From IMG/VR virus record IMGVR_UViG_3300028862_000398, positions 1 through 36,367 of that record: DNA of 36,367 nt. One strand, written 5' to 3'. Below, in pieces: positions 1,659-34,460 of this stretch; position 1 is the first letter of the stretch, and every line of letters starts with the position of its first letter. A program made the translations under genes and the position numbers. The stretch comes from a virus. The notes under the pieces were generated by a model. That model made no database searches and was not told the DNA's origin. It saw nothing but the letters and a program-made list of their open reading frames with translations.

Positions 1659-3359
1659 TTAGGCATTAGCCGAATCATGATTATAGCATACTCTTGCTCC
1701 CGATGACTGCCCATCCAATCCGCTTGTTATTAGCGGAATTGTATCTCCATTTCTATATTTTGTTTCAAGCAAATTATCAGCTAGCCATTCCTGTGTACCA
1801 ATACATATTGTTCGATATAATTTGCCGTCATTCCCAGTATATGTTCCTTCTTGTCCGTTGGTTAAAGTCGTACTATCTTTAATCAATCGCTGTGATGTAT
1901 ATACATTAAAACCAGTGACTCCACCAGACAAATTTTGCCCACTGTTACTTATCGCCCAAATATATCTGGCAGTGCCACCATTGTATGAATAGTCATTTCG
2001 ACATCCTGTGTGAAATTGAAAATGAAGTCCCCCGAATGAACTGGCATAACAGCCGCATGGCCTTGCATTGAACTTCGAACTATTTGTAGCTCCGGTGTTG
2101 GGAGAAGACCAATCGCTAGTTCCAATTTCTTTCATTTTTCCACCGGCAACGCTCAAACCCCCCAGATAACCAAGCATAGTCCAATATTCGAGTTCACGCG
2201 CAACATGCCATCCTGTATTTGCCATATTCCTAGAATCGAGAAGCGCGTAATAGTTGTACTCATATCCGTATTTAATTACTGCGTAAACTGGCCCTGCTGG
2301 TTTATTGGTAACAGTTCCAGAAATGGTCATTTGCATTGCCATAGTTGCTATCAGATCGAGTTTATTTCCGGACAGTTCAGCCAGAGTGACCAAACTCATC
2401 GGAATATTTACAGCACTTAATGAGGCGTATGCTTTTAAAACAGCCTGAGCATTCAGACTCATCGGAAGACTATCAGCTATCAGTTTCTTATATGCGGTCA
2501 AAAGAGCCTGCCCATCCAGTTCCATGTTCATGCTTGCCTGAATACGACCATAAGCGGTAAGGATTGCCGAGCTATCCAGAACCATCGGCAATTGAGCCTG
2601 AAGGTTTGAGTATCCGGATAAGCCAACTTCGAAATTCAGAGCCATGTCAGCAGTTGCTTGCAGGTTTAAATAAGCTTGCAAATAGGCAGTAGTTTCAAGG
2701 ATCATGCTCATTTCAGAATCGATATCCCAGAATCGTTCACTCAAAACGCAACGTTCAAAACACAGGTGAATCCGCTTTGCATTTTCGGTCATTCCGGTAA
2801 GCGTGGCAAACAGTTTCTTTGTCCCGGCATTAACGCCACAGACCAACGTGATTGAGGCATTAGTCAGCATCGCAGTATCATCAACTACTTTTACAGCATC
2901 TGAGTAATCAAAACTCAGGATGTTCATGAGTTTTTTTATTGTATCAAGCGACTTATCTCGGATCATCACCACCGCCTTGAATTCTCCAACCTGTTCATTG
3001 TATTTTTCAACTGTCCATGATGAAGCAACCGTTACTTCCGTTTCTTCAGTATTTTCAATCAGGAATGATTCGTGATTGTTCCCGGAGGCGGTTTTAATGG
3101 CTGTCGGTAGAGTAACCTCGATAATATTCGTGATTTCGTTGGAAATTTCTTCGATTTCAGTAGTGACTATTTCCACAACTATTGACTCAATTTCAGACTC
3201 AGTTAAACCTTTGTTTTTCACGTTTCCCCAAAGCATAAGTGCCTCACGCTTGCCACCATTTACCGGGGTAATTCTCCCCAGCTTATAAATGACAAAACCC
3301 GAGTCCCTTAATGGGTCAATGTGTTCTTTCGATACTAATATTTCAGAGGTATCTATCAT
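1659..3359 (-). CDS. Receptor-binding tail protein with FISUMP domain
   Basis: This 566-residue protein is the likely adhesin. Residues 1-~200 form a virion-attachment region. Residues ~215-350 hold about six degenerate 20-21-residue repeats built on xxAxLxAYxxLxAxxxMxL. The rest is a FISUMP-type (Fibrobacter succinogenes major paralogous) domain: YGYEYNYYALLDSRN, GWHVARELEYW, LGGLSVAGGKMKEIGTSDW, SPNTGATNSSKFNARPCG and RLIKDS. The block GTYTGNDGKLYRTICIGTQE plus WLADNLLETKYRNGD, normally the N-terminal half of FISUMP, comes last, so the halves are swapped. FISUMP domains share the C-type-lectin-like fold often diversified by DGRs, but no stretch matches the DGR template in this window. The CDS starts 3 bp after the upstream baseplate gene ends. 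Confidence 0.75.
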   Translation of the reverse strand: MIDTSEILVSKEHIDPLRDSGFVIYKLGRITPVNGGKREALMLWGNVKNKGLTESEIESIVVEIVTTEIEEISNEITNIIEVTLPTAIKTASGNNHESFLIENTEETEVTVASSWTVEKYNEQVGEFKAVVMIRDKSLDTIKKLMNILSFDYSDAVKVVDDTAMLTNASITLVCGVNAGTKKLFATLTGMTENAKRIHLCFERCVLSERFWDIDSEMSMILETTAYLQAYLNLQATADMALNFEVGLSGYSNLQAQLPMVLDSSAILTAYGRIQASMNMELDGQALLTAYKKLIADSLPMSLNAQAVLKAYASLSAVNIPMSLVTLAELSGNKLDLIATMAMQMTISGTVTNKPAGPVYAVIKYGYEYNYYALLDSRNMANTGWHVARELEYWTMLGYLGGLSVAGGKMKEIGTSDWSSPNTGATNSSKFNARPCGCYASSFGGLHFQFHTGCRNDYSYNGGTARYIWAISNSGQNLSGGVTGFNVYTSQRLIKDSTTLTNGQEGTYTGNDGKLYRTICIGTQEWLADNLLETKYRNGDTIPLITSGLDGQSSGARVCYNHDSANA

Positions 3360-3361
3360 GG

Positions 3362-5665
3362 CTATTCTTCAGCTAATGGAACTTTTACATACAAAAAATA
3401 TCCGTCGTCGTCGGGCAGGGTAATATCAGTTTGGGCAATGTTCCACGATCGGGTTGGATCATAAGGCAATTCAGCATCTTTCAGCTTCTGAATTTCATAC
3501 CGATCGAGCGTTTTATAATTCGAAACGATCAGCGATCCTGCGCCAATAATAATATCGTTGGCAACGCCTCCCACGTTAGTTTCAACCAATGTCTCTTTTA
3601 GCGAGTAAGGTAAAACTACATCAGGTGCCATCATTCCCGGGTCGAGGCTTGATTCTCTGACAAGCCTGTCGGCCTTAAACTTATCATCTGTCGGATCAAG
3701 CAGTCTATTGCGTAGCTCGTTGGTTGTTTCCTGATCCTTTCGGGTTGCTTCGGTTGTATCTTTCTTCGCATCGCTCAAAGCGCGTTCAATGGCTTCGAGG
3801 CGCATGTCTGTTTTCTTCAGCTTTGGCACCTTCACAACTTCTGAAAGTGTCAGCTCATAAGTGCCTTTATAAACATCGTATACCAGCGAACTAATCCGGA
3901 GCGGGCCGTCAACGCCATGCTCCGGAAATATGAACGGCACACGGTCTCCAGCTTCAAAACCAAAAGGCTGATCCTGGGCTTTCACAAAAGCAGGGTGAAC
4001 CGTTACATTGTATGGGTATTTAGGTATGCAATGCATATCAAGGTCTGTCTGTGCAGCTGCTTCCAATTCAGCTTCCGCAAGAGCCACGTAACTGGTAGGC
4101 TGATCGATATCAATTAGAGTATATTGATTGTCTACAGCAATCGGAAAGTTTGCATTTGGAAATAAATCACCGCGCTCATCCTTAAACGGAATGATGTATA
4201 TTTCTTTGGTATCATTATCGAAGCGGTTTATCTCAAATTGCATTCCGGCCAGATCACCGGTTTTCATCACCACTTTAGCCGAAAGACCGCCAAGTAGGTA
4301 GTCGTTAATATTGAAGTCAAGTGTCGAGTCTGTCAGCTTAAAAATTCCTTCCGGATGAGCGTACTTTTCTTCAACCGTTAATTCGTCCTGAAGCTTTTGA
4401 ACATAGCCAGTAACTATTCCGGTGAAACGAGGAAAAATATCTTCGTAAAATAGAGTTTTGGATTTAACTCCCAAGTCGCCAGCTGCAAAATCTAATCCAT
4501 AGTTTTTCTTCAGCGGGTTATTATCGAACGACAAACGACGGGTTCCATTGCGGTAGCCTGGCTTCAAATTTTTGGTTGATCCAAATGCGAACAGGCAGGT
4601 ATAGAATTCGTCAGCCAGCATTTCACCCGGAGTGATTTCGTACAAACCTTTGCCTTTGCCATATTCAAGAACAATATCTTTGTCATTTGCAATCTGTGCC
4701 CTTACGTTGATATTAAATTCCCACTGTGTTTCATGCAACGATTCAAACTCGTATTCCAGTTTATATTCGGTGCAAAGCCTTCGAAGTACCGACAAACAGT
4801 TTTCGCCTGAAAATTTATGCAACCGGCGTTCAGTAGTATCAATGGTTCCCTTGAAAAATTTACGGGCATAATAGTCTCGTCCGTGATTGTTACAAATCAG
4901 GGTAATAATCTCATCGAAGTTAGCGAAGTACGAAAAGTCTGATTCGCCCAGATCGTTCAGGAAATCAGAATGAGAAAGCCAGTTTCCCATATGATTGGCC
5001 CTGATGTTATAAACAAACTTATTGTTCGAGATCTTCTTAGGTTTAGGCTCCGACTCAAAGTAAAAGCGATCTGGGCTCGATCCGTTTGAACTGATACTTA
5101 TATCATCGAAAAACCGGATATCTAACTTTTGATTTGTTTCGAATGAGAAGGTCGCGTAAAAATCACCCTGCAAGGTTTTTTGAACTTTTAAGTCGCGGGT
5201 TAAAACCGTAGCAATAATATTATTGCTGTATGTTCGTGAAATGTGAAGCTGATAAAAGTCGATATCACCGGCAACAGTTAGGCGAAGGGTAAACATGCCA
5301 ATTTGCAGCGAACTGACGTAAGACGTTTTGCGAGTCATCTGTATGGCCTGCTGAACAGTTACGTGTTCAATTTCGTTGCCGTAAACAGTTGTCAGCGTTC
5401 GTTCACCAGGAGCCACCAGCGCAGCATAAAAAGCAGCTACTTTGGTTTTAAATTCTTCGTACCCGGCTGCTTTTATCCAGCAGTTTAATGATATTTCCCG
5501 ATCCTGGTATTTCACGTCAGCGGCATCCTGCCAATAGTCGCGCCCATTCTCATCGAGCCAGTCGGTTGACTCATCGAAAATTTTAGGCATATCCAGTACT
5601 CCGGATGTTTTTACTACAACAACGCCGTAGTTCTTAAAGTCTATATCGTCAAGTTTCCAGCTCAT
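3362..5665 (-). CDS. Baseplate/tail-tip protein: Dit-like N-terminus plus Tal-like hub
   Basis: This 767-residue protein has an N-terminal ~140 residues (GVVVVKTSGVLDMPK, DREISLNCWIKA, APGERTLTTVYG) resembling siphophage distal tail (Dit) proteins. The following several hundred residues resemble the N-terminal baseplate-hub region of tail-associated (Tal/gp44-like) proteins, including the LSVLRRLCTEYKLEYEFE segment. The C-terminal ~120 residues are charged and probably coiled (ERALSDAKKDTTEATRKDQE). Position between tape measure/119-aa Dit-like gene and the adhesin fits a tail-tip hub connecting tube to receptor-binding protein. It overlaps the upstream gene by 4 bp. No hydrolase motif is obvious. 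Confidence 0.6.
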   Translation of the reverse strand: MSWKLDDIDFKNYGVVVVKTSGVLDMPKIFDESTDWLDENGRDYWQDAADVKYQDREISLNCWIKAAGYEEFKTKVAAFYAALVAPGERTLTTVYGNEIEHVTVQQAIQMTRKTSYVSSLQIGMFTLRLTVAGDIDFYQLHISRTYSNNIIATVLTRDLKVQKTLQGDFYATFSFETNQKLDIRFFDDISISSNGSSPDRFYFESEPKPKKISNNKFVYNIRANHMGNWLSHSDFLNDLGESDFSYFANFDEIITLICNNHGRDYYARKFFKGTIDTTERRLHKFSGENCLSVLRRLCTEYKLEYEFESLHETQWEFNINVRAQIANDKDIVLEYGKGKGLYEITPGEMLADEFYTCLFAFGSTKNLKPGYRNGTRRLSFDNNPLKKNYGLDFAAGDLGVKSKTLFYEDIFPRFTGIVTGYVQKLQDELTVEEKYAHPEGIFKLTDSTLDFNINDYLLGGLSAKVVMKTGDLAGMQFEINRFDNDTKEIYIIPFKDERGDLFPNANFPIAVDNQYTLIDIDQPTSYVALAEAELEAAAQTDLDMHCIPKYPYNVTVHPAFVKAQDQPFGFEAGDRVPFIFPEHGVDGPLRISSLVYDVYKGTYELTLSEVVKVPKLKKTDMRLEAIERALSDAKKDTTEATRKDQETTNELRNRLLDPTDDKFKADRLVRESSLDPGMMAPDVVLPYSLKETLVETNVGGVANDIIIGAGSLIVSNYKTLDRYEIQKLKDAELPYDPTRSWNIAQTDITLPDDDGYFLYVKVPLAEE

Positions 5666-13798: not shown

Positions 13799-14806
13799 CT
13801 ATTTTTTAGAGGGTTTCTTTCCGAATTTTGTTTCAAACTTGCTTTCATACAAGTCAGGGTATTTGGTTTTCAGGAGTTCCTGTTTACCACTACGGTCAAT
13901 CTCGTCCCAACTTTTTGCAGTAAGGTCGGCCAGTTCAATGGCATCTTTATCGCCGGTTTGGATTTGGCTTTGAATAGACTGTCTCTGAGGGATTGCTTCA
14001 ATGGTTGCTTTTGCCGATTCGAAATCAACATCAAACAGTTTAATGAAGTTGTCTTTTGCTTTTGCATCGATGCGGCCTTCCCTGATTGCTGTATCAACCA
14101 AAGTAATTGCTTCAGCTTTCTTTGCAGTTTCGGCGGCAGTTTCGATATCGCTCAACTTAACGGTCAAGCTTTCGTTTGCAGTTTTCAGCGCATCGCGTTC
14201 GGCGATAATGGCTTTAACGGCGGCAGTTCGTTCTACTGGTGTAGCCGTATCTGCCAGATTCAAAATCTGAGCTAATTCATCCATCTGTTTATTTTTAGGA
14301 TTGATAATTTTTGGAGTAGAGTCCATCAGTTTAATTATTGCTGACGGGTCATTTAATTCAATTTGTTTTCCGGTTTCCCGATCGTAGAAAACCATAGAGT
14401 TGTGGTTCGATCCGATTGTAACGATGGAGGCTTCGCGAGCCGTCCATTTGGTTACAGTTGCCAACAGCTGACCAGGCATCATGACTGATTCGTCGTATGA
14501 TACTTCCTCTGGTGGCCATGAACCGATAGAAGCCATACGGATAAAATCACGCTCAACCTGCGACGATACTTCAGCGCCACCGTTCTCACGTCTGTCTTCA
14601 GTATCAAAAATAGGATCGGCTAAAATCTGACTTCCTTCAATACGGATATTTTCCCATCGGCCAATAGGGCGCGTCCAGTCGTTATGCATATAAAGCATAA
14701 CCGGATTTTTAATTAACTCTTCGAGATTGCATCCCGCAGTAAGCATTCGGAATCCTTTTGTGTTAACCGATTCGTCGTGAAGTACAAATGATTTAATCTT
14801 TGCCAT
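13799..14806 (-). CDS. Prohead protease fused to scaffold
   Basis: This 335-residue protein has an N-terminal ~150-residue prohead serine protease-like domain (HK97 gp4/U35 herpesvirus-type). Candidate catalytic residues are His41 in VMLYMHNDW and Ser93 in RMASIGSWPPEEVSY. Residues ~170-240 are a coiled, Ala/Glu/Lys-rich scaffold-like region (AIIAERDALKTANESLTVKL). The C-terminus is basic (KFETKFGKKPSKK), as in scaffolds that bind the capsid interior. This is the fused analogue of the Mu I (protease)/Z (scaffold) genes. It is the first gene of the leftward structural operon. Confidence 0.8.
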   Translation of the reverse strand: MAKIKSFVLHDESVNTKGFRMLTAGCNLEELIKNPVMLYMHNDWTRPIGRWENIRIEGSQILADPIFDTEDRRENGGAEVSSQVERDFIRMASIGSWPPEEVSYDESVMMPGQLLATVTKWTAREASIVTIGSNHNSMVFYDRETGKQIELNDPSAIIKLMDSTPKIINPKNKQMDELAQILNLADTATPVERTAAVKAIIAERDALKTANESLTVKLSDIETAAETAKKAEAITLVDTAIREGRIDAKAKDNFIKLFDVDFESAKATIEAIPQRQSIQSQIQTGDKDAIELADLTAKSWDEIDRSGKQELLKTKYPDLYESKFETKFGKKPSKK

Positions 14807-22816: not shown

Positions 22817-24430
22817 TTAAACAACTTCTCTCTTTTCTAATGCAACCTGAAGCGCAGATAGAACCGGTTCAATCATCAGTTTAGCCCATTCGGGAGGAAC
22901 TGCGTTGCCAATCAGTTTGGTTTGTTCTTTCTTGGTCAGCTTCAGTAGCGGATCAGTAAAATATCGTTCCGGGAACGTGGAGATAAGGCCCAACTCTTCA
23001 GGATCAAGAAATCGCATCCGGATATCAAAATCAAATTCGCCGCTTTCGATGGCCGAGATCAATGCTTGTTTGTTGGTGCCTGTTGTGATCGTGCCTAGAG
23101 GGCTGTCAATACTCTGGTTCTGGCTGCCTTGTTTACCCGAGCTGGAATAATAGGCCGTAATGAATTGAATCTTCTCTTTTGTGGTAATTGAATTCATTGG
23201 ATCATCCATGCTCTGGTTATTCCCGTTTCCAAAATGATGCGATATAAACTGCTGTTTTTGCTCCGAAGTGATCGCGTTCAATGGCTCATCAATGCTTTGG
23301 TTGTTGGCTACTGGATTGCCATTGCTGTTGTACTGATGCGAGATGAAATGAGTCGAAACCAGATGTTTTGAATTTTCGGTGGTGATGGTATTGGCCGGAC
23401 CGTCTAAACTATGCGCTGTATTGAACCGTCCGTAGTAATCGCCTAAAAATTGTTTTTCAACGGTTACCAGCTGTTTCGTCTGGCGGGTAAGTATTGGGTT
23501 AAGCGGTTCACTGGCTGAGTTATAGCTATTGGTGTGGCAATGATCGGCGATGAAGTTCAGCTTTTCCATAGTCACCAAAACATGACGGTCTTTTGTTGTA
23601 ACAGCGTTTAAAGGAGATTGTAAACTCTGAACATTTTTGCCGTTTCCGTAATACTGGAAGATGAACGACAGTTCAGGAGCATACTTGTCGATGCCTCCGG
23701 CAATGCGTTCGTGGGTATTGGGGCAAAGTTCTTTCCGGTGACCCTTCTTAATATTCGGGTTAAACTTACGGCCAAAAATGCTCTCACCCTCTTTGGTCAA
23801 ATCGATAAAGCTTTTGCAGGCTACCCATTTCTGAAGGCCGTTTTTACCATCTTTCGAATGTGTAGGTTCAGGCCAATTAAAACTTAGCTGAAGGTGTGAT
23901 TTTGTGAAGAACGCAAAATAACGTACCCGACGCGTTGGTATTCCGAAATCGGCGGCATTATTAATATATTCGCTGTAATCGTAGCCCAATGCACAGATGG
24001 CAGCTTTCCACTTTTCAAACTCTTCACCTTTTCTGGTTTTGTCTGGCTTGCCATCTTTTAGCGGCGCCCATTCTTTAAATTCAGGTACGTTTTCAATACC
24101 AATCACTGAAGGCTGCAAAAACCTGACATATCTTAACAATTCCCATCCAAGAGTATAGCTACCTATTTTCTTCTCACGGCCACCGTTGGCGCGACTGTGC
24201 TGGGTGCATTCTATAGATGCCCAAACAAAGTCAACCGGTTCCATCTCATGCTCATCCTGAGTATAGAAGTTAGCCAGATAATGTTTGATTCCTTTGTTGT
24301 TGTGCATATTGGTACGGATTGCGATCTGATTGTGATTAAGCACCCATTTCACTTTCAATCCCGATTTTTTCATTGCGTGTGTAACTCCGCCGCCACCGGC
24401 TAAAAAGTCACCTGAAGTAAGTTCGATCAT
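22817..24430 (-). CDS. DNA (cytosine-5) methyltransferase with internal repeats
   Basis: This 537-residue enzyme methylates cytosine C5. Motif I is SGDFLAGGGGVTHAMKKSG (6-24), the catalytic Cys75 lies in WASIECTQHSRANG (EC in place of the usual PC), ENV is at 113-115 and RRVR at 167-170, and GNAVPPEWA near the C-terminus is motif X. Between motifs VIII and IX, where the target-recognition region lies, are six degenerate repeats of the type QSIDEPLNAITSEQK, spaced roughly 40 residues apart. No restriction enzyme is next to it, so it is probably an orphan methylase that shields phage DNA. It lies mid-operon with non-overlapping neighbours. Confidence 0.9.
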   Translation of the reverse strand: MIELTSGDFLAGGGGVTHAMKKSGLKVKWVLNHNQIAIRTNMHNNKGIKHYLANFYTQDEHEMEPVDFVWASIECTQHSRANGGREKKIGSYTLGWELLRYVRFLQPSVIGIENVPEFKEWAPLKDGKPDKTRKGEEFEKWKAAICALGYDYSEYINNAADFGIPTRRVRYFAFFTKSHLQLSFNWPEPTHSKDGKNGLQKWVACKSFIDLTKEGESIFGRKFNPNIKKGHRKELCPNTHERIAGGIDKYAPELSFIFQYYGNGKNVQSLQSPLNAVTTKDRHVLVTMEKLNFIADHCHTNSYNSASEPLNPILTRQTKQLVTVEKQFLGDYYGRFNTAHSLDGPANTITTENSKHLVSTHFISHQYNSNGNPVANNQSIDEPLNAITSEQKQQFISHHFGNGNNQSMDDPMNSITTKEKIQFITAYYSSSGKQGSQNQSIDSPLGTITTGTNKQALISAIESGEFDFDIRMRFLDPEELGLISTFPERYFTDPLLKLTKKEQTKLIGNAVPPEWAKLMIEPVLSALQVALEKREVV

Positions 24431-25412: not shown

Positions 25413-25718
25413 TTATGTGAATTTAAACCGTTCGTTTTCTTTGATAATAATTGTTTTGAAAGGGAAGCAGTCTTCAGGAACTTGCATAATTGCATCTATC
25501 AGCCCGGATGCTCCGGTAAATACAATATGCTTTTCGTCATTAATTGATATTTGCAAATGCATACACTTTCCTGATCCAGGCTCTTTGAAAACCTTTGATT
25601 CTACAATCTTGAAATGGTGAACTATAATTTCGCGATCCAAGATTTTAGACATCTTAATTTTATCGCCTTCAAAGGCTTGAGAGGTTACTTTTATATTGAA
25701 TTGACTAAAACTGTTCAT
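25413..25718 (-). CDS. Small beta-rich protein overlapping the RT gene
   Basis: This 101-residue protein overlaps the end of the RT gene by 14 bp. It is rich in alternating strands (DREIIVHHFKIVESKVF, GKCMHLQISINDEKHIVFTG, PFKTIIIKENERFKFT). The pattern could suit a small nucleic-acid-binding barrel, but no motif proves this. Its tight coupling to the RT suggests a role in retrohoming or simply shared expression. It does not resemble the helical Avd accessory factor of classical DGRs. Confidence 0.55.
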   Translation of the reverse strand: MNSFSQFNIKVTSQAFEGDKIKMSKILDREIIVHHFKIVESKVFKEPGSGKCMHLQISINDEKHIVFTGASGLIDAIMQVPEDCFPFKTIIIKENERFKFT

Positions 25719-26664
25719 GTAATAACTTTTTCATTAGGTTTTTGCTGTTGCAGTGTTTGGCCCAACCGTTATAGCTGGCTATCGACTTTGCATTTCTATT
25801 TTTCTTCAGCATTCGGGCAAAATTCTGTTTAATGGTTTTTCGGAGTAGCGTGTGCGTGTGATAAAAGACATAGCCAACGAAATCAATCCCTCGGGCGGAA
25901 ACCGGAAAGACCTGGTAGTTTCCTTTAACTGTCAGCCTCAAATTATCCTTAAGATATGCCCTGATTTCAGCTAATAATTGGTGCAAATAGGGCTTAGAGT
26001 CAGAAAGTATTACCAGATCGTCAGCATAGCGGAAATAGTAATGAACCCGCTTTTCTTCTTTGATCCAGTGGTCAAAATACGTCAGGTAGAAGTTGGCGAA
26101 ATATTGGCTGAGGTAATTTCCAATAGGGAGCCCCGACGTACTGTCTATAATTTCGTCAAGCAGCCAAAGCAGATCATTATCTTTAATCTTCCGGCGCAGC
26201 AATTGTTTTAAAGTGGCATGATCTACGGAAGGATAAAACTTCTTAACATCAAGCTTCAAACAATACCTGGTGTTTTCAACATCATTTAAAGCTTGTTTAA
26301 CTGCTCTTGCAGCGGCGTGAATGCCTTTGCCTTTGATACAACTGTATGAATCAGTTGTAAAAACGGATACAAATACATGCTCCAGAATATTCATGACAGC
26401 GTGATGCAATATCCTGTCTGGAAAATAAGGCAATCGGAATATGATCCGCTCCTTTGGTTCGAAGATTGTAAACGTAGTATATTCGGATGTCCGGTAAGTC
26501 TTATTCATCAGCATATCATGCAATTTCTGAATATTGTCTTCGCGGTTTTTATCGTGAGAAATTACACCTGGTTGTTTTGCCTTTCCTTTCCGGGCTATTG
26601 AGTCTGCCAGTTCAAGGTTTTCAATGCTTATTATTTTACCGTACAAATTATTGATCCGCTTCAT
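25705..26664 (-). CDS. Diversity-generating retroelement reverse transcriptase
   Basis: This 319-residue RT has all core motifs in order: RLPYFPDRILHHAV (motif 1/2 area), LKLDVKKFYPSV (motif A, catalytic Asp139), LPIGNYLSQYFANFYL (180-195) and FRYADDLVIL (YADD at 213-216, catalytic Asp pair), then RLTVKGNYQVFPVSARGIDF and a thumb. The IGNYLSQ motif ([ILV]GxxxSQ) is the signature that separates DGR RTs from group II intron and retron RTs. The enzyme copies the adjacent template-repeat RNA with errors at adenines; the cDNA then replaces the variable repeats. Length is normal for DGR RTs (~300-400). The start at 26664 is 96 bp from the template repeat. Confidence 0.95.
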   Translation of the reverse strand: MKRINNLYGKIISIENLELADSIARKGKAKQPGVISHDKNREDNIQKLHDMLMNKTYRTSEYTTFTIFEPKERIIFRLPYFPDRILHHAVMNILEHVFVSVFTTDSYSCIKGKGIHAAARAVKQALNDVENTRYCLKLDVKKFYPSVDHATLKQLLRRKIKDNDLLWLLDEIIDSTSGLPIGNYLSQYFANFYLTYFDHWIKEEKRVHYYFRYADDLVILSDSKPYLHQLLAEIRAYLKDNLRLTVKGNYQVFPVSARGIDFVGYVFYHTHTLLRKTIKQNFARMLKKNRNAKSIASYNGWAKHCNSKNLMKKLLHEQF

Positions 26665-26760
26665 GCCTTTGCTTTTAAAAGATCGTTTTCACTTTCGTTA
26701 CCAACGCTCTCGAAAATGTGTTGTTTTTTGCCATGTGGGCAAGGTTTATGCTGCGAATGA

Positions 26761-26850
26761 TTGTGCATAGGTGCGAACTGACGTTCGAGTTACGATTATC
26801 GTAGTTCGAATTCGAATTCGAAAAGTCGAACCCTGAACCTGAGGAAAGAA
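26761..26850 (-). repeat. DGR template repeat (TR)
   Basis: This 90-bp segment is one of three near-identical copies and is the adenine-rich one on the minus strand. Where it differs from either variable repeat, it always has an adenine (20 of its 23 adenines differ in at least one copy; 0 of 67 other positions). It contains six AAY codons in the pattern SNSNSNYDNRNSN, typical of TRs because AAY can mutate to 15 amino acids and never to a stop. It lies between the diversified genes and RT, where the TR-containing RNA is expected. A 64-residue ORF running through it is a by-product. Confidence 0.95.
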
Positions 26851-26887
26851 CCGTCAGAATAGGCAGCATACAACCGTTTATTTCAAA

Positions 26888-27298
26888 TTATATCAACCAC
26901 GTTTTGTAATCGTCATTCAGCACTTTGAACACGTGCATCGTTTTGTCATCACTGTCCGTGCAAAGGCGCGAACCGACGCCCGAGCCACGAGTAACGTAGT
27001 GCGAAGACGAATTCGAAAAGTCGAACCCCGAACCCGAGGAAAGAACTCTTGCATATGCGAAGTATTTGTCAGTATTTTTTGTGAAGTCTACTTTCTTGCC
27101 TTCGTTTACTGCCGATACTCCAACCATGATCCGGTAAACAGCGATTAAGGGTTCACGAAATTCTTCGGGTAAATTATCCACTCCGGGAAGTTGAGTCGGA
27201 TCAATGTTTCGTGCTTTGCAGAAATCTTCGAATGATTGCATTTGTGTGAAATCAACTTTTTGCTGATCTTCTTTTGGGTTTATTTTTTCCTTTGTCAT
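26888..27298 (-). CDS. DGR-diversified small protein 1 (VR1)
   Basis: This 136-residue protein has a constant N-terminal region (DFTQMQSFEDFCKARNIDPT, GVDNLPEEFREPLIAVYRIM) and contains the variable repeat at residues ~85-114: SSGSGFDFSNSSSHYVTRGS and GVGSRLC. A 22-residue tail (DDKTMHVFKVLNDDYKTWLI) follows, so the VR is not at the very C-terminus as in many DGR targets. No signal peptide, lipobox or membrane helix is visible, so the protein is predicted to be cytosolic. It lies 4 bp downstream of the second target gene and directly upstream of TR. I recall similar SGxGF...VGSRLC proteins in Bacteroidetes phages, without known function. Confidence 0.85.
   Translation of the reverse strand: MTKEKINPKEDQQKVDFTQMQSFEDFCKARNIDPTQLPGVDNLPEEFREPLIAVYRIMVGVSAVNEGKKVDFTKNTDKYFAYARVLSSGSGFDFSNSSSHYVTRGSGVGSRLCTDSDDKTMHVFKVLNDDYKTWLI
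26956..27045 (-). repeat. DGR variable repeat 1 (VR1)
   Basis: This 90-bp copy aligns with the template repeat without gaps. It differs at 16 positions, all adenines in the template. Codon changes include AAT to TCT, AAC to CAC, GAT to GTT, AAT to ACT, two AAC to GGC, AGT to GGT and CAC to CGC. It encodes residues ~85-114 of the 136-residue protein. The conserved 3' part GTCGGTTCGCGCCTTTGC is GC-rich and is the likely initiation-of-mutagenic-homing side. Confidence 0.95.
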
Positions 27299-27302
27299 GA
27301 TT

Positions 27303-27761
27303 TTAATTTTTGTTTGTTATCAATAATTTAAATAGTGGTAAGAATGTTTTTCCGATGAAATCTGACTTTTCCTGAGTCTCCGCGCAAAGGCGCGAACCGA
27401 CGTTCGAGCAACGATCATCGTAGTGCGAATACGAACACGAAAAGTCGAACCCCGAACCCGAGGAAAGAAAAACTTGCTCCCATTTCCGTTGGTTAGGATT
27501 TGGAAGATCAGCTATCCATTCGCCATTCACTGTTTTTGTGATATGGCATAATTGCTTAAAGGCAACAATATGAGGGCGGTCGGTAGAGTAAATAATGTCA
27601 TCTTCATCAACTGGACGCATTTCAACTGCATCCTCGTAGGTTTCGATGTCGCGCCAGTCAGTTTTGAAGCTTTTCTCACCGAATTCTTCAGCTAATTCCT
27701 TCTTAAACCAATCAGGAGAAAGAGGATATATCTTTTTTGCTTTTTGAAGTGTCAGTTCCAT
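27303..27761 (-). CDS. DGR-diversified small protein 2 (VR2)
   Basis: This 152-residue protein is a paralogue of the next gene in the VR and tail. The N-terminal ~95 residues (TLQKAKKIYPLSPDWFKKEL, IETYEDAVEMRPVDEDDIIY) differ from protein 1 and resemble a small domain with acidic and aromatic residues. The VR covers residues ~98-127: SSGSGFDFSCSYSHYDDRCS and NVGSRLC; the tail EKSDFIGKTFLPLFKLLI follows. It has no export signal. It begins just downstream of DUF4494 and ends 4 bp before protein 1, so both are made from the early operon together with RT. The biochemical function is not recognised. Confidence 0.85.
   Translation of the reverse strand: MELTLQKAKKIYPLSPDWFKKELAEEFGEKSFKTDWRDIETYEDAVEMRPVDEDDIIYSTDRPHIVAFKQLCHITKTVNGEWIADLPNPNQRKWEQVFLSSGSGFDFSCSYSHYDDRCSNVGSRLCAETQEKSDFIGKTFLPLFKLLITNKN
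27380..27469 (-). repeat. DGR variable repeat 2 (VR2)
   Basis: This 90-bp copy is gap-free against the template and differs at 15 positions, all template adenines. Changes include AAT to TGT, AAT to TAT, AAC to CAC, AAT to GAT, AAC to TGC, AGT to GGT and CAC to CGC; one AAC is unchanged. Several substitutions are different from those in VR1, so the two repeats were mutagenised independently. Confidence 0.95.
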
Positions 27762-29247: not shown

Positions 29248-29694
29248 TTAATTTAGTGACGATAAATATTCGAGTTCCTCGGCGGTAACCTTGTTAACGC
29301 CCTTAAAATCTTTCTGCTTATTCAGAAAGGTATTATAGATGTTCCGGAGGCGTTCGGTAGGTATCTCGTTAAACCGTCGGTACCCGGTTGCGCGGCAGGC
29401 AATGGCCTTAATGCGCTGTGCATCACTTTCCAGATTGATTGTTTTCAGCCAACCGCCAATCGATGCCATTACCTGTTTGCGAAGTTTGTCGAGTACCGGA
29501 GCTTTAGGGTTATTGTCGCGCTCCAGAACATTGCACAACTCAAATAATTCCGTAACCGATAAATCGAGCGAACTTGCAACTCCGTAGCTTTCCATAATGG
29601 CTGCCTTATCGCTTTTATCGAGTCCGATTCGTGTTGCCAGCGTGTGATACTTTTTGATCAGACGGGCGTGTTCTTGGTCGGTTGTTGCTTTCAT
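29248..29694 (-). CDS. Mu GemA (gp16)-like regulator
   Basis: From ATG 29694 the protein has 148 residues. It has the GemA-like plan: an N-terminal LIKKYHTLATRIGLDKSDKA helix pair with SSLDLSVTELFELCNVLE, a linker, and a C-terminal domain VMASIGGWLKTINLESDAQR with IKAIACRATGYRRFNEIPTE. GemA of Mu modulates host gene expression and DNA gyrase. A longer ORF start at 29790 would run over the upstream gene and is rejected. The gene lies between a small phage protein and DUF3164, as in other Mu-like elements. Confidence 0.6.
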   Translation of the reverse strand: MKATTDQEHARLIKKYHTLATRIGLDKSDKAAIMESYGVASSLDLSVTELFELCNVLERDNNPKAPVLDKLRKQVMASIGGWLKTINLESDAQRIKAIACRATGYRRFNEIPTERLRNIYNTFLNKQKDFKGVNKVTAEELEYLSSLN

Positions 29695-29698
29695 TGTA

Positions 29699-30199
29699 TT
29701 AGTATTTAAGTTTTGTCCAGTGAATAATTTTGCCTGTGAAATCTTTATTAAACCATTCGAAAAACTGAGTAATAGACTTAAATCCATCATTTTTAGCCAG
29801 AATTTTCACTTCTTGCCAGTTCAATGATCTTCCGTCTATTTTCATAAAATGCAAGCAATCTTTTTCAAAAATTTCAATCTTCTGAACCGATTTGCAAACG
29901 AGCGTAGGCGCAAACTGAAATTGGTTTTTCGAACGGTTAAAAACAACCGGGTGAATCAGGCAGCCTTCATGCCAACGGTCATGGATATCTTCTCGGATGG
30001 TATGAGGTTTTGGAGCTCTTTGGCTAAACTCTAGGCATCCATCCCAATAATATCCGAGTTTATCAAAGAATAAATCGGCATATTCTATTTCTTTTTTTCC
30101 ATTTGTTACTAAACCATTAATCGTAATAGAATGCCATATTTTATCTATAAAATAGGTCGGAGTTCCGTTTTTAAACTGTGTTGAAAATGGTAGTATCAT
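29699..30199 (-). CDS. Conserved phage protein of unknown function
   Basis: This 166-residue protein has a mixed strand/helix pattern with conserved-looking blocks: KPHTIREDIHDRWHEGCLIH, FQFAPTLVCKSVQKIEIF and a C-terminal FFEWFNKDFTGKIIHWTKLK. The 'TIRxDxxxRWxxGxxIH' stretch recalls ASCH/PUA-like RNA-binding proteins in which a basic pocket precedes a 'V/I-x-S-I-x-x-I' strand. I recall similar proteins in Bacteroidetes prophages. An RNA-binding role is possible but not shown. It starts 30 bp after the upstream ATPase ends. Confidence 0.5.
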   Translation of the reverse strand: MILPFSTQFKNGTPTYFIDKIWHSITINGLVTNGKKEIEYADLFFDKLGYYWDGCLEFSQRAPKPHTIREDIHDRWHEGCLIHPVVFNRSKNQFQFAPTLVCKSVQKIEIFEKDCLHFMKIDGRSLNWQEVKILAKNDGFKSITQFFEWFNKDFTGKIIHWTKLKY

Positions 30200-30229
30200 A
30201 ACTTTAAATTTTAAACTTTAAACTTTTTA

Positions 30230-30847
30230 TTATCCCCAGTACATTTCGCTCATATCCGAGTTAATCTCTATCGATCCGCCTTCAGAAAAACGGCTCACTA
30301 CGAAAGCTCTTAAACCTTTCACGTTGATTATCACCTTTGCCAGTTTTGATGCCAGTTTGGCGCAGGCTGGGTAAGGTAATTTGCGCTCTTCGTGCGAAAC
30401 GAAAATGATCAGCTTAGTAGGGAACGCTTCGATAAAATCACGTATCCCATGACATTTAAACTCGTCGGGGTAAATCGTGAGATTATCTATTACAATAATG
30501 TTGGGCATTTTGGGCTTCAGAAACTTTTGTTTTATTTCCTCTACCGACAGATACTCGTCGAAGAGTATTTTGTCAGCTGCCGTTATTCCTGCCCGTTCGC
30601 AGGCTCTTCTAAAACTGAGGTCTGTGCCTTCCTCTGCGCTGATGTAGGCAACCTTTTCGAAGTATGCCAGTGCTTTCACCAGTTGCAGCGTAAACCAGGT
30701 CTTTCCGTTTTTTTCGGGTCCGTATATCAGCCAGCATCCTTTTCTTTCTGCCTTTCCAATCGCCTTGGTTAGTAGTTCGCTGTCAAATCTTACAGTTGTT
30801 CCAGTGCGTTTTTCAAAAAGATTGCGGGCGGTAAGAGATCGCGTCAT
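30230..30847 (-). CDS. RecA-like P-loop ATPase (AAA_24-type phage ATPase)
   Basis: This 205-residue ATPase has a clear Walker A GPEKNGKT (43-50) followed by a helix WFTLQLVKALAYFEKVAYIS, and a Walker B-like NIIVIDNLTIYPD. The short RecA-fold core without extra domains is typical of phage ATPases that load recombination or replication factors on DNA. With transposase and Mu B-like ATPase upstream, it could act in target handling or replication restart. It starts 3 bp after the preceding gene. Confidence 0.65.
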   Translation of the reverse strand: MTRSLTARNLFEKRTGTTVRFDSELLTKAIGKAERKGCWLIYGPEKNGKTWFTLQLVKALAYFEKVAYISAEEGTDLSFRRACERAGITAADKILFDEYLSVEEIKQKFLKPKMPNIIVIDNLTIYPDEFKCHGIRDFIEAFPTKLIIFVSHEERKLPYPACAKLASKLAKVIINVKGLRAFVVSRFSEGGSIEINSDMSEMYWG

Positions 30848-30850
30848 GCG

Positions 30851-31054
30851 CTAGTTATTTTCAGTCAGTTCACAAATACCATCATTCAGTTGGTTCAGCA
30901 TTTCGCTGAGCCGCTCGGTTTCTTCGAGGTATTCGGCTCCTTTTTGCGAATCCTGCCATCGGTCGCCGTGACTGTCATAAAACTTTTTGCGGGTCTCAAC
31001 TTCCTTTTCAATATCTGCGATTAGCTCTTTTACTTTTTGGATGATTCGTTTCAT
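30851..31054 (-). CDS. Small coiled-coil protein
   Basis: This 67-residue, highly charged, helical protein (KVKELIADIEKEVETRKKFY, EYLEETERLSEMLNQLNDGI) has no recognised domain. Its ATG overlaps the upstream gene's stop (4 bp), so it is translated with the zinc-finger protein. The role is unknown; the heptad pattern suggests a dimerising partner for one of its neighbours. Confidence 0.5.
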   Translation of the reverse strand: MKRIIQKVKELIADIEKEVETRKKFYDSHGDRWQDSQKGAEYLEETERLSEMLNQLNDGICELTENN

Positions 31055-31479
31055 AGTGCTAGGGTTAGTTGTTGTTTTTGTTTTTTGTTAGGGTCTGTCA
31101 TTCGCGGCCAAAATGGATAGGTAGTTTTTAGCCAAACTTCATGGTCATCTCTCCAAACGGCATCGCGCATATTGAGCCACCACGAAAAGCATCGTATACC
31201 GCGACAAAGCCACTCCCATTCATATATTGCCCCGTATTCTCTTCCACAACACATACAAACTCTTTTCTGAGTTCCTATTTCTTCATAATGATCGATTAAC
31301 CAAAAAGTACCCATGTCAGGAATTGCACGTTTATGATAGTCTCTCATTGATTCAATTCGTTGGTCGTTTCGACTATGCCACCATTCACGTTCTTCAGGAG
31401 TTGTTTTAATCTTATAAGTATCAATAGTGCTTATGTCTCGAAATCCCGTTGCGGCAGCTATATATTTAAATTCGCTCAT
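31051..31479 (-). CDS. Cys/Trp-rich early protein with zinc-finger-like cluster
   Basis: This 142-residue protein has a Cys cluster CMCCGREYG (three Cys) followed by ECLC-like spacing in WLCRGIRCFSWWLNMRDAVW; together these can bind zinc. It is unusually rich in Trp. The N-terminus (YIAAATGFRDISTIDTYKIK) shows no motif. It overlaps the Mu B-like gene by 4 bp (ATGA), so it is co-translated. The family is not recognised. Confidence 0.5.
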   Translation of the reverse strand: MSEFKYIAAATGFRDISTIDTYKIKTTPEEREWWHSRNDQRIESMRDYHKRAIPDMGTFWLIDHYEEIGTQKRVCMCCGREYGAIYEWEWLCRGIRCFSWWLNMRDAVWRDDHEVWLKTTYPFWPRMTDPNKKQKQQLTLAL

Positions 31480-32393
31480 GCTGCGTCCTCCTGATTTGAA
31501 AGTAAAATCAACAACGATTCGGCACGACGTAGACCTCCGATATGGCCGTTACTATCGTTCGCCAGGCATTTATTCACAATGGTGTTCAGTAAGTCAGCCG
31601 GGCAATTATTAGCCATCAAAACGTCAGTAATTAGTTTACGGTAAAAGTCTATCCGGTCTTGTCTTCCTGTTGGAACGATGTTCGAAAACTTACCTGAGAA
31701 TCGTGAGAATATTTCAGCGAAACCCACCTTTTTAGCGGTTATTCCGGCCTCAATTTTTTTGCGTAATCCATCGGCACCGGTAATGTACCAGCCACAATAA
31801 TTTTCGGTCGAGTTCCACAGTTCCTTCAATTCCAAAAAGGCTTCGTATTCCAGGTCACCGGCTTCGTCAATAATTACAACCGGCTTACTCAGGCTTTTTA
31901 GGTAAAATTTCAGGGTTTCTTTAACTTCAATATATCGGCCCTTACTTTCGGCTCCAACGGTTTTGGCGAGTAGGCGAATAAATGCTTGTTTCGTTTTAGC
32001 CTGACTGGCATCCACATAAAAACAGTTCTTTATCGTTCGGCTTAAAACTTTGCAGGTATGTGTTTTTCCGATTTCGCAATCGTCAACAAACATCATCGAT
32101 TTGGCGTGAGCCTTACAGAATAAAACATCGTCTTCAATCGCCTGAGTAACATCTGTCCGGGCAGTAACCCATTTTCTGTTTTCAACAGTTAATCCCAATT
32201 CATGAGCAATCATAATCCACTGGGTAGTTCTCAGCAGTCCCATGTGTTCGCCGTTGTTCAGGCGCGAGAAAACCGCTGACGATATGCCAAATGTTTTGGC
32301 GAACGATGCATTACTACCTTCGTAAAGTTTACGGCGATCATGTAATGCTTCGATAATTTTTAGTTTGAATTCGGTAGTAAGGGTAATAGCCAT
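31476..32393 (-). CDS. Mu B-like transposition ATPase
   Basis: This 305-residue protein is the AAA+ target-selection partner of transposase. Residues 1-~70 form a CI-like helix-turn-helix (NASFAKTFGISSAVFSRLNN), as in Mu B. The ATPase core has a Walker A variant FVDDCEIGKTHT (102-113; Gly-Lys-Thr kept, first Gly replaced by Asp), Walker B PVVIIDEAGDL (171-181, Asp176/Glu177), and a sensor region with ENYCGWYITGADGLRKKI. Mu B binds DNA in filaments and directs transposase to targets away from its own ends (target immunity). It is directly downstream of transposase with an 18-bp gap. Confidence 0.9.
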   Translation of the reverse strand: MAITLTTEFKLKIIEALHDRRKLYEGSNASFAKTFGISSAVFSRLNNGEHMGLLRTTQWIMIAHELGLTVENRKWVTARTDVTQAIEDDVLFCKAHAKSMMFVDDCEIGKTHTCKVLSRTIKNCFYVDASQAKTKQAFIRLLAKTVGAESKGRYIEVKETLKFYLKSLSKPVVIIDEAGDLEYEAFLELKELWNSTENYCGWYITGADGLRKKIEAGITAKKVGFAEIFSRFSGKFSNIVPTGRQDRIDFYRKLITDVLMANNCPADLLNTIVNKCLANDSNGHIGGLRRAESLLILLSNQEDAA

Positions 32394-32411
32394 AGCTTGT
32401 TTGTTTTTTGG

Positions 32412-34460
32412 TTAAAATCGGTCTTTTAAACTCTTATTAAATGATGGTGAAATAGTCTTGAAAATGTCGTCTTCCTCTTCCACGTCTTCCATGATCTCAA
32501 CTGGCCCAACACGTTCGGTAATTGGTTTGCGTAATCCTGAAATCTGGAATTTGTTGTTTAATGTCTTTGGAGTATTGTCGATCACGGTAACGCGGTCAAT
32601 CTTATTCTTTTGAGTGCGAATGAACTTGTCAACTGATGACACATACATCGACATTGCGGTGTAATTCTCAATATCTTCAGGAGTGCGCTCAATTTGCGCC
32701 TTGTTGTGACTTGGTTTAGCAACAGCCTCGCAAACGCAACGGTCGGTACCGCGCAAATAAACCAGAGCTTTCATTATTTGGCCGTCGTTGCCATCCAACC
32801 AGTAAACGTCAAGGTCTTTACCTTCAATCTGTGTCATTAATCCAATCAGCCTGTCGCTAAATACGAGCTTCCCATTTTCGCCAATCAAATACTTTTTGTT
32901 ATTCAGACTAATTTGTCCGAGGTTGCACGATGTTTCTGTTTTCCATCCGATGTATGGAAGGAAGGCGCGCCAGTTTGTTGGTAAAATATTCGGATTTTGC
33001 TTTTCGGTGAAAACTTCCCAGCGTGTTTTTCCCTTAATCTTCGAATGCTCCATGTTGTTCCAGGTCTCAATATCTTTCAGGCAACCTTCAGCCAGTTGGT
33101 CGTAGGGTATAAACGGTTGTGCCTTTGGCCCTGCCTGATTCGATTCTGAAAGCGCAAATGGACGAGCTAACCAGCCTTCGCGTTCTTTTTCAATGTTGTA
33201 TCGTAGGTTTCCGTAGTAGCGTTCTATACGTTTTCCACGGGCATTATTAGCCTCAATGTGGGTAAATTGAAACATTGTACCTTTCTCAAGAAAAGTGTTC
33301 AGAAACTTGCTGTTTAAACTCATTTCACCTTCCAGTTCAGCCGGTAGGTTAAATCCCCAGCCGATATAATTTCGAACCATCTGACGGTAGAAATCGTCGA
33401 TAATTCCCTCCTTAGTTTGTCCGTAAACCCATGTTGTAAATGCTTCAGAACCCAAATCGATACCATTATAAAACCACATGCGTTTTCCTTTGGCATATTC
33501 AAACGGCGGCTGACGGTCATCAATCGAAATAATTGATCCTGAATATTCGGGTTGCTTCATGTCGTGGAACGATCTAAATTTCGACATCCATATTTGTCGG
33601 TTTCCTGAGCGGATCGTGTGCGTTCCAACTTTTGAAGACCATTTGGCGAGATAATTGGTAATTGTTGCTGGCGAAAGCTTTGGAAATTCCTTCGGATCGT
33701 ACACTTCGCCAGTTTCACTATTGATTACTTTAACATATCCGGATAAAAAACTATCGTATTGTCTTGAAATCTGTGTAGCTGTTGGCTTATCTGATTGATA
33801 GGCGAACATGCTATTGAGTAAATTAATGACAGATTCATCAACCTTTAAAGCCGACTTATTGCAGAAGTTGCCATGAATTAAAGCCTCGTAGCTCTCTTTT
33901 TGGTATTCCTTCAGTTTACGGCGAAGGCTCGCAGCGTTGGCCGGAAGTGTATGGCCCTGAATATCTCTAAAACGGTTGCACTCATTGGTAACAATTGTCC
34001 AAATGTCGGCAACTCCGCCGCGAAGACTTTTGCGCAGCTCATAACGTTTTTTATAAATCGTTTCGGCAGTATTTAAAACCGAAGCATTAAGCGTGTACTC
34101 GTCAATAACTGCATCAGGCAAAAATTTACCGTCCTGAAGCTGGTAATTGGTGTAAAACTCAATAGCAACACTGTCACGGCTGTAGTGCCTTTCAAAAAGC
34201 GACTGCCTAACTTGTCTTTGTGGCTCACCAAAAGTTTCAACTAATAGCTTTTGCCAGTCACGCGGTAGAGTATCCCACTTTACTAATGCCGGAGTATTAG
34301 GCCCGCGCATCCGTAACCTTTTAATATAACCGTTTTCAATCCGATGCCGTAAACCGCGCTCTCCGATCAGAACTAAGCTGCTCGGGTCTGCATCTTCGCC
34401 AGAAATCAGAACGTTTGCACGTATTCCTAGCTGTTCATTATGGTATTCGTATGGGATCAT
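32412..34460 (-). CDS. Mu A-like DDE transposase
   Basis: This 682-residue transposase carries out integration and replicative transposition. It has N-terminal DNA-binding regions, an RNase H-like core with the first acidic residues in SIISIDDRQPPFEY (~residue 313), a GIDLGSEAFTTWVYGQ strand and the final Glu in ANNARGKRIERYYG (~residue 413), followed by a WLARPFALSESNQ region and a beta-barrel-like domain near residues 500-580. The strand where the second catalytic Asp is expected reads LPAELEGEMSLNSKF, with Glu but no Asp, a feature I recall in Bacteroidetes Mu-like transposases. Its early-operon position just before the Mu B-like ATPase gene confirms the role. Confidence 0.92.
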   Translation of the reverse strand: MIPYEYHNEQLGIRANVLISGEDADPSSLVLIGERGLRHRIENGYIKRLRMRGPNTPALVKWDTLPRDWQKLLVETFGEPQRQVRQSLFERHYSRDSVAIEFYTNYQLQDGKFLPDAVIDEYTLNASVLNTAETIYKKRYELRKSLRGGVADIWTIVTNECNRFRDIQGHTLPANAASLRRKLKEYQKESYEALIHGNFCNKSALKVDESVINLLNSMFAYQSDKPTATQISRQYDSFLSGYVKVINSETGEVYDPKEFPKLSPATITNYLAKWSSKVGTHTIRSGNRQIWMSKFRSFHDMKQPEYSGSIISIDDRQPPFEYAKGKRMWFYNGIDLGSEAFTTWVYGQTKEGIIDDFYRQMVRNYIGWGFNLPAELEGEMSLNSKFLNTFLEKGTMFQFTHIEANNARGKRIERYYGNLRYNIEKEREGWLARPFALSESNQAGPKAQPFIPYDQLAEGCLKDIETWNNMEHSKIKGKTRWEVFTEKQNPNILPTNWRAFLPYIGWKTETSCNLGQISLNNKKYLIGENGKLVFSDRLIGLMTQIEGKDLDVYWLDGNDGQIMKALVYLRGTDRCVCEAVAKPSHNKAQIERTPEDIENYTAMSMYVSSVDKFIRTQKNKIDRVTVIDNTPKTLNNKFQISGLRKPITERVGPVEIMEDVEEEDDIFKTISPSFNKSLKDRF

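Follow-up and report, generated by a model that had tools for sequence, protein, structure and literature searches.

Diversity-generating retroelements (DGRs) diversify defined segments of phage proteins, and among the known targets in phages tail proteins form the majority (PMC8144416). The repeats in that survey were sought within 20 kb of the reverse transcriptase (RT). Distal second variable repeats (VRs) were reported near counter-defence genes (PMC8008677; PMC12629997), and the non-structural second target of Quimbyvirus was described with a C-type lectin domain (PMC8008677). The window, i.e., the whole 36,367-nucleotide stretch of viral DNA analyzed here, contains a DGR whose interest lies more in its targets than in the element itself.

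The DGR cassette and its repeats

The element in the window is a genuine DGR: an RT of the DGR group is accompanied by a template repeat (TR) beside the RT and by VRs within coding genes, with differences confined to adenines (Table 1). As claimed in the original prediction, three 90-nt repeats align without gaps on the minus strand, and the order VR2 gene, VR1 gene, TR, and RT was confirmed, as were the coordinates. The copy adjoining the RT is the TR, with 23 adenines among its 90 bases. The predicted counts were likewise reproduced, as all 31 differences from the TR (16 in VR1 and 15 in VR2) are at template adenines, 20 of the 23 adenines are altered in at least one VR, and none of the 67 other sites is altered. 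The chance of every difference falling on an adenine is 1.1e-12 for VR1 and 1.1e-11 for VR2, which rules out a chance origin of this restriction. No further TR copy was detected within the window on either strand. Around related RTs, 151 loci (some of them duplicates) showed VR changes relative to the TR at 4391 of 6423 template adenines and at 46 of 16718 other sites. When C or T took the place of A in a scan of related-RT loci, nothing was found, and G yielded 9 of 54 loci, which are probably VR-to-TR pairs read backwards; a special base other than adenine was ruled out by these scans.

Table 1. Features of the DGR and the transposition genes in the window.
Feature	Position	Strand	Remarks
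101-aa gene overlapping the RT end	25413..25718	-	most related loci have a homologue in this position
DGR reverse transcriptase (319 aa)	25705..26664	-	phrog_1423 (1.7e-130); RVT_1 (2.4e-19); PDB 8ub7 (1.6e-40); tree
Short hairpin (TGCC-CACAT-GGCA, then A-run) 3' of TR	26729..26741	-	kept in relatives
Template repeat (TR)	26761..26850	-	23 adenines; active core at about positions 25-70 of the repeat
Target T1 (136 aa)	26888..27298	-	phrog_11581 family; contains VR1
Variable repeat 1 (VR1), in T1	26956..27045	-	16/16 differences at template A
Target T2 (152 aa)	27303..27761	-	paralogue of T1; contains VR2
Variable repeat 2 (VR2), in T2	27380..27469	-	15/15 differences at template A
MuB- and MuA-type transposition genes	31476..34460	-	phrog_296 (2.3e-29), phrog_310 (1.7e-35)

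The RT carries the motifs PIGNYLSQ and YADD, and its best PDB match is the BPP-1 DGR RT, followed by a group II intron RT (4.3e-16). In the RT tree, it belongs to a cluster of 42 RTs (SH-aLRT 89), all of which serve small targets. RTs that serve lectin-type targets fall outside this cluster, and those of group II introns are distant. Long branches leave the positions of BPP-1, BT-TP2, and LoVEphage unsure. Nearly all RTs of its clade have adenine-biased TR/VR pairs. The comparison with DGR RTs, proposed earlier as a check, therefore agrees with the motifs and the TR/VR pattern that a full DGR is present.

With the conserved G-S-R-L-C motif as the anchor, adenines were sorted into three classes across 211 related VRs. 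Those of the core, at offsets of about -48 to -11, appear as any of the four bases, in proportions that vary. On the 5' side, offset -61 is changed in 111 of 112 related VRs (108 of these to G) and offset -54 is G in 139/140; on the 3' side, A is replaced by G at offsets -6 (191/191) and +1 (174/174) and by T at +5 (137/143). The near-uniform outcomes at these five offsets indicate fixed TR/VR differences outside the exchanged tract. Within the window, 10 changes are the same in VR1 and VR2, and seven of them lie outside the active zone: repeat positions 17, 72, 79, and 83 belong to the fixed-mark class, and positions 11, 89, and 90 lie at the edges and are also alike in both VRs. Thus, although every variable site originally listed is at a template adenine, 7-8 per VR are probably fixed marks around an active core of ~45 nt, a distinction missed at that time, and these flank sites provide no measure of recent activity. 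The active core contains 15 adenines, with 9 changed in VR1 and 7 in VR2; 12 are changed in at least one VR and only 3 identically.

BPP-1 has IMH/IMH* differences, which the 3' marks resemble. Judged by their pattern, the fixed differences at -6, +1, and +5 form an IMH-like 3' boundary of the exchanged tract. No description of equally strict 5' marks was found in the part of the literature searched.

Accessory elements and activity

The cassette as originally proposed lacked a conserved gene that directly follows the RT. Of the loci searched, counting overlapping fetches, 164 contain a homologue of this 101-aa gene, usually in the same position, and lectin-target DGRs have similar genes close to their TR or RT. 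The gene had no match in Pfam or PDB and fits no known family. No Avd gene was recognized at the DGR of the window, and the 101-aa gene is proposed as a putative accessory factor replacing Avd. In 107 of 114 relatives (5.8 would be expected), a short stem followed by an A-run is located 14 to 29 nt 3' of the TR, and several of the stems are compensating. This hairpin probably belongs to the DGR RNA; it is judged by these counts, as the alifold z-score was inflated by gap columns and set aside. A BPP-1-like hairpin directly 3' of the VR was not found (mean best stem of 4.25 vs. 4.02 in shuffled sequences), and an Rfam search gave no match.

Both targets have changed in relatives, with the changes limited to adenines. 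A viral contig (L045) and a Chitinophagaceae MAG (L088) differ by 21 substitutions in 12,945 bp that are otherwise identical, and all 21 (11 in VR2 and 10 in VR1) are at template adenines; VR differences at non-adenine positions, named in the original prediction as evidence against it, were absent from these close relatives. Among Elizabethkingia prophages, VR adenine sites are changed at 13/19 and 10/19 positions and other VR sites at 0/116, with 58 scattered changes in 1,097 bases of the flanks. Between genomes, the TRs differ at 26% of non-adenine core sites, whereas TR and VR inside one genome differ at 0.3% of non-adenine sites, which suggests that each TR keeps overwriting its own VRs (concerted evolution). 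Likeness at core adenines is 0.38 for VR pairs of one genome and 0.46 for VRs of different genomes; accordingly, VR1 and VR2 diversified independently, and a coordinated change of the two is unsupported. The sole near-identical contig (L002) has VRs without a difference from the window, and no TR codon in the target frame can mutate to a stop codon. The earlier description of the DGR as recently active thus holds for the relatives L045 and L088, and for the window itself we infer recent activity from sequence.

Target proteins and their genomic context

The two target genes named in the original prediction do carry the VRs, and two traits had been overlooked, namely that they are paralogous and probably early, non-virion genes. 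T1 and T2 are small proteins with neither a signal peptide nor a membrane helix, and the maximal 19-residue hydropathy (0.94 and 0.51, respectively) indicates no membrane stretch. Beyond the VR, these targets end in a conserved stretch of 21-24 aa, compared to mostly 2-6 aa in the lectin-type targets of the sister group. The VR loop is hypervariable, contains many Tyr, Asp, Ser, Gly, and Cys residues, and is predicted to lie between conserved helices. Two AlphaFold2 models based on 91 aligned sequences (pLDDT 83 and 84.5) have the same helices and show the VR as a loop that is their least confident part (pLDDT < 50); the helical scaffold is therefore predicted with fair confidence and the form of the VR loop with low confidence. 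Foldseek searches with both models found no fold match in the PDB, and good matches in BFVD were essentially only uncharacterized phage proteins. Sequence searches of Pfam, NCBIfam, PADLOC, and PDB returned nothing significant, and no database link of the family to defense or counter-defense was found (PADLOC included). The missing Pfam match is no evidence against a lectin, because in a control the lectin domains of tail-type targets were also unrecognized by Pfam.

The gene set of the window, with MuA- and MuB-type genes, terminase, major head protein, tape measure, and a repressor on the opposite strand, identifies it as a Mu-like transposable phage of Bacteroidota. The DGR cassette shares strand and gene run with the transposition genes and is separated from the head-protease/MCP/tail block by at least ~11 kb. 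The order T2, T1, TR, RT, and 101-aa gene recurs with almost constant spacing in >100 Bacteroidota phage and prophage loci, many of which have MuA-MuB on one flank and oppositely oriented head genes on the other. In 17 near-complete relatives, TR copies occur only in the small T1/T2 family, and most of these relatives have MuA/MuB-type genes on the same strand. Tail genes contain no copy of the TR in either the window or these 17 relatives, and the window record, which may lack its ends, has no tail VR. A fourth TR copy in one genome (G322) was considered as a tail VR and rejected, being another small target. Homologues were absent from 295 other genomes of one phylum sample and from plasmids; viral contigs were searched with one family member as the query instead of a profile.

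Several neighboring observations concern other genes. A 566-aa protein with a Fib_succ_major domain and no VR is encoded at the tail end (1659-3359), and this domain occurs in other DGR targets. Two DNA methyltransferases, of the D12 adenine type and the C5 cytosine type, are located at 174-986 and 22817-24430, and small early genes at 29248-31054 have no assigned function, several of them being kept in relatives (e.g., 30230-30847). A 43,428-bp record (L039/G316), one of the 17 near-complete relatives, contains two separate DGRs, at 3859-5520 and 34318-36400, one of them being the cassette with twin small targets. The other DGR of this record has an RT with GLPLGNVTSQ, its own TR (4808-4927), and a VR (5401-5520) in a 755-residue ORF; 21 of 34 template adenines are changed and the target is tail-type. 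The two DGRs apparently serve one kind of protein each.

The T1/T2 family also occurs as a remote second target in other phages. In G305, BT-TP2, Versailles, cr56_1, cr60_1, and LoVEphage, one TR serves both a tail-type protein adjoining the RT and a small T1/T2 homologue kilobases away. A scaffold-only profile, from which the VR had been removed, matched the six small proteins at 8e-20 to 1e-9 and matched no lectin target, with shuffled sequences at 0.4 or worse. Similarly, phrog_11581 spans the small proteins along their length, and its overlap with the tail family phrog_5302 is confined to the VR segment. The small gene is among recombination and replication genes in Versailles, beside lysogeny genes in BT-TP2, downstream of exonuclease/RecT and methyltransferase genes in LoVEphage, and inside a block of small uncharacterized genes in the crAss-like phages (cr56_1 and cr60_1). 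On the basis of LoVEphage, the non-structural second target of Quimbyvirus (PMC8008677) would be a member of the T1/T2 family, and the distal VRs near counter-defense genes (PMC12629997) perhaps belong to it as well. Given the 20-kb limit of the survey in PMC8144416, most remote small-target VRs would be missed there; its target clusters probably include such twin-target loci. No paper on exactly this twin-target layout was found among the main texts searched.

Individual records of these phages show further details. In cr60_1 (NC_055891), the first adenines turned out alike in the tail VR (60389-60489) and the remote small VR (14234-14301), as would be expected if a single cDNA had reached the two VRs, a pattern absent in cr56_1. 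The RTs of cr60_1 (L230, 4762-5787) and cr56_1 (L232, 3434-4441) have in-frame stops under table 11, so that 132 and 176 aa are read, presumably due to amber recoding. The small target of BT-TP2 (L226, PQ571279; 44859-45224 and 1-300) spans the record ends and is unannotated, and the small gene of Versailles among the recombination genes (L233, ON453897; 4182-4763) is annotated as “tail protein,” a label that apparently stems from likeness of the VR segment only.

Possible role of the targets and comparison with known systems

The locus is probably best explained as an early-operon DGR that diversifies two paralogous intracellular early proteins. Copying of the TR transcript by the RT would be error-prone at adenines, and the resulting cDNA would replace the core (~45 nt with 15 mutable adenines) of VR1 and VR2 independently. 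The fixed TR/VR differences on both sides would mark the limits of the exchanged tract and, judging from BPP-1 and the pattern itself, probably shield the TR from overwriting. The products would be two paralogous small proteins with a hypervariable loop between conserved helices. The position of T1 and T2 beside transposition genes, together with that of their homologues beside replication, recombination, and methyltransferase genes, argues for action inside the host cell, either early in infection or in the lysogen; we infer early expression, intracellular location, and ligand alike. T1 and T2 may form a diversified module for counter-defense or exclusion whose ligands are changing factors of the host or of rival phages, a role that, taken alone, we put forward tentatively and with slightly more doubt than conviction.

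T1 and T2 might instead be minor virion proteins, such as receptor-binding or adhesion subunits encoded out of place, whose diversification would change host range as in BPP-1. Their VR segment does resemble that of tail lectin-type targets, the prevalence of tail proteins among known phage DGR targets (PMC8144416, available part) fits such a role, and gene position alone is compatible with it. A virion role is nevertheless unlikely, as the genes are on the early strand in the window and its relatives, homologues stand among replication or lysogeny genes in unrelated phages, the tail target is a separate protein from the small target wherever it exists, and the T1/T2 scaffold is unrelated to tail proteins. 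The shared VR segment could also mean that T1 and T2 are unrecognized small C-type lectin-like proteins, released or exported for glycan binding or receptor masking (superinfection exclusion), and the C-type lectin domain given to the related Quimbyvirus protein (PMC8008677) and the poorly modeled VR loop are in line with this. Such lectins seem quite improbable considering that T1 and T2 have no signal or membrane stretch, that both models are predicted with high confidence to be helical outside the VR, that no PDB fold matches, and that likeness to tail targets is confined to the VR segment.

Intact genes for the RT and both targets, a layout kept in >100 loci, relatives changed only at VR adenines, and a TR without codons that can turn into stops make it highly improbable that the cassette is a decayed remnant of past activity whose small proteins have no present role, even though L002 shows no VR difference from the window and part of the TR/VR differences are fixed marks. 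Returning to T1 and T2 as intracellular early proteins, selection on the DGR seems to be maintained by the small proteins alone, with no tail VR in the record (whose ends may be missing). It is possible, though rather doubtful, that a widespread Bacteroidota phage lineage uses its DGR solely for paired intracellular non-lectin binders, which would provide an anticipatory repertoire against host defenses or rival phages by placing a hypervariable segment like that of tail lectins on a helical scaffold.

A conserved group of Bacteroidota phages thus appears to spend its DGR only on paired small early proteins, and the sharing of these targets by dozens of relatives suggests that some phages may rapidly diversify non-virion proteins. 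One protein family now accounts for the hitherto unexplained second target of several gut phage DGRs. A testable question is therefore raised as to what phages diversify inside the cell and against whom, and a small natural scaffold bearing a hypervariable loop is of possible use.

Compared to BPP-1 (mtd, avd, brt), the RT is homologous along its length, the TR is beside the RT, transfer from TR to VR is limited to adenines, and the fixed 3' TR/VR differences are comparable to IMH/IMH*. The window differs from BPP-1 in that it diversifies a pair of paralogues that are probably not tail lectins, has no recognized Avd, bears fixed marks at the 5' end as well, and shows no hairpin 3' of the VR. 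Hankyphage (PMC6199706; PMC12135933) is likewise a transposable Bacteroidota phage with a DGR, but its target is a large tail fiber with a C-type lectin domain accompanied by an Avd-like gene, in contrast to the small early proteins of the window. The RTs of the crAss-like DGRs (cr56_1, cr60_1, and cr55_1) are 54-59% identical to that of the window, and cr56_1 and cr60_1 also carry a small T1/T2 homologue with a VR; in these DGRs, however, the primary tail target adjoins the RT and the small target is tens of kb away. The second target of Quimbyvirus (PMC8008677) and the distal VRs of gut prophages (PMC12629997) resemble the window in having a hypervariable protein away from the tail genes and near methyltransferases, and the LoVEphage homologue belongs to the T1/T2 family. 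In those phages, the protein serves a tail DGR as its second, distant target and was described as a C-type lectin, whereas in the window the small protein is the only kind of target, is duplicated, is located beside the RT, and has a predicted helical scaffold.
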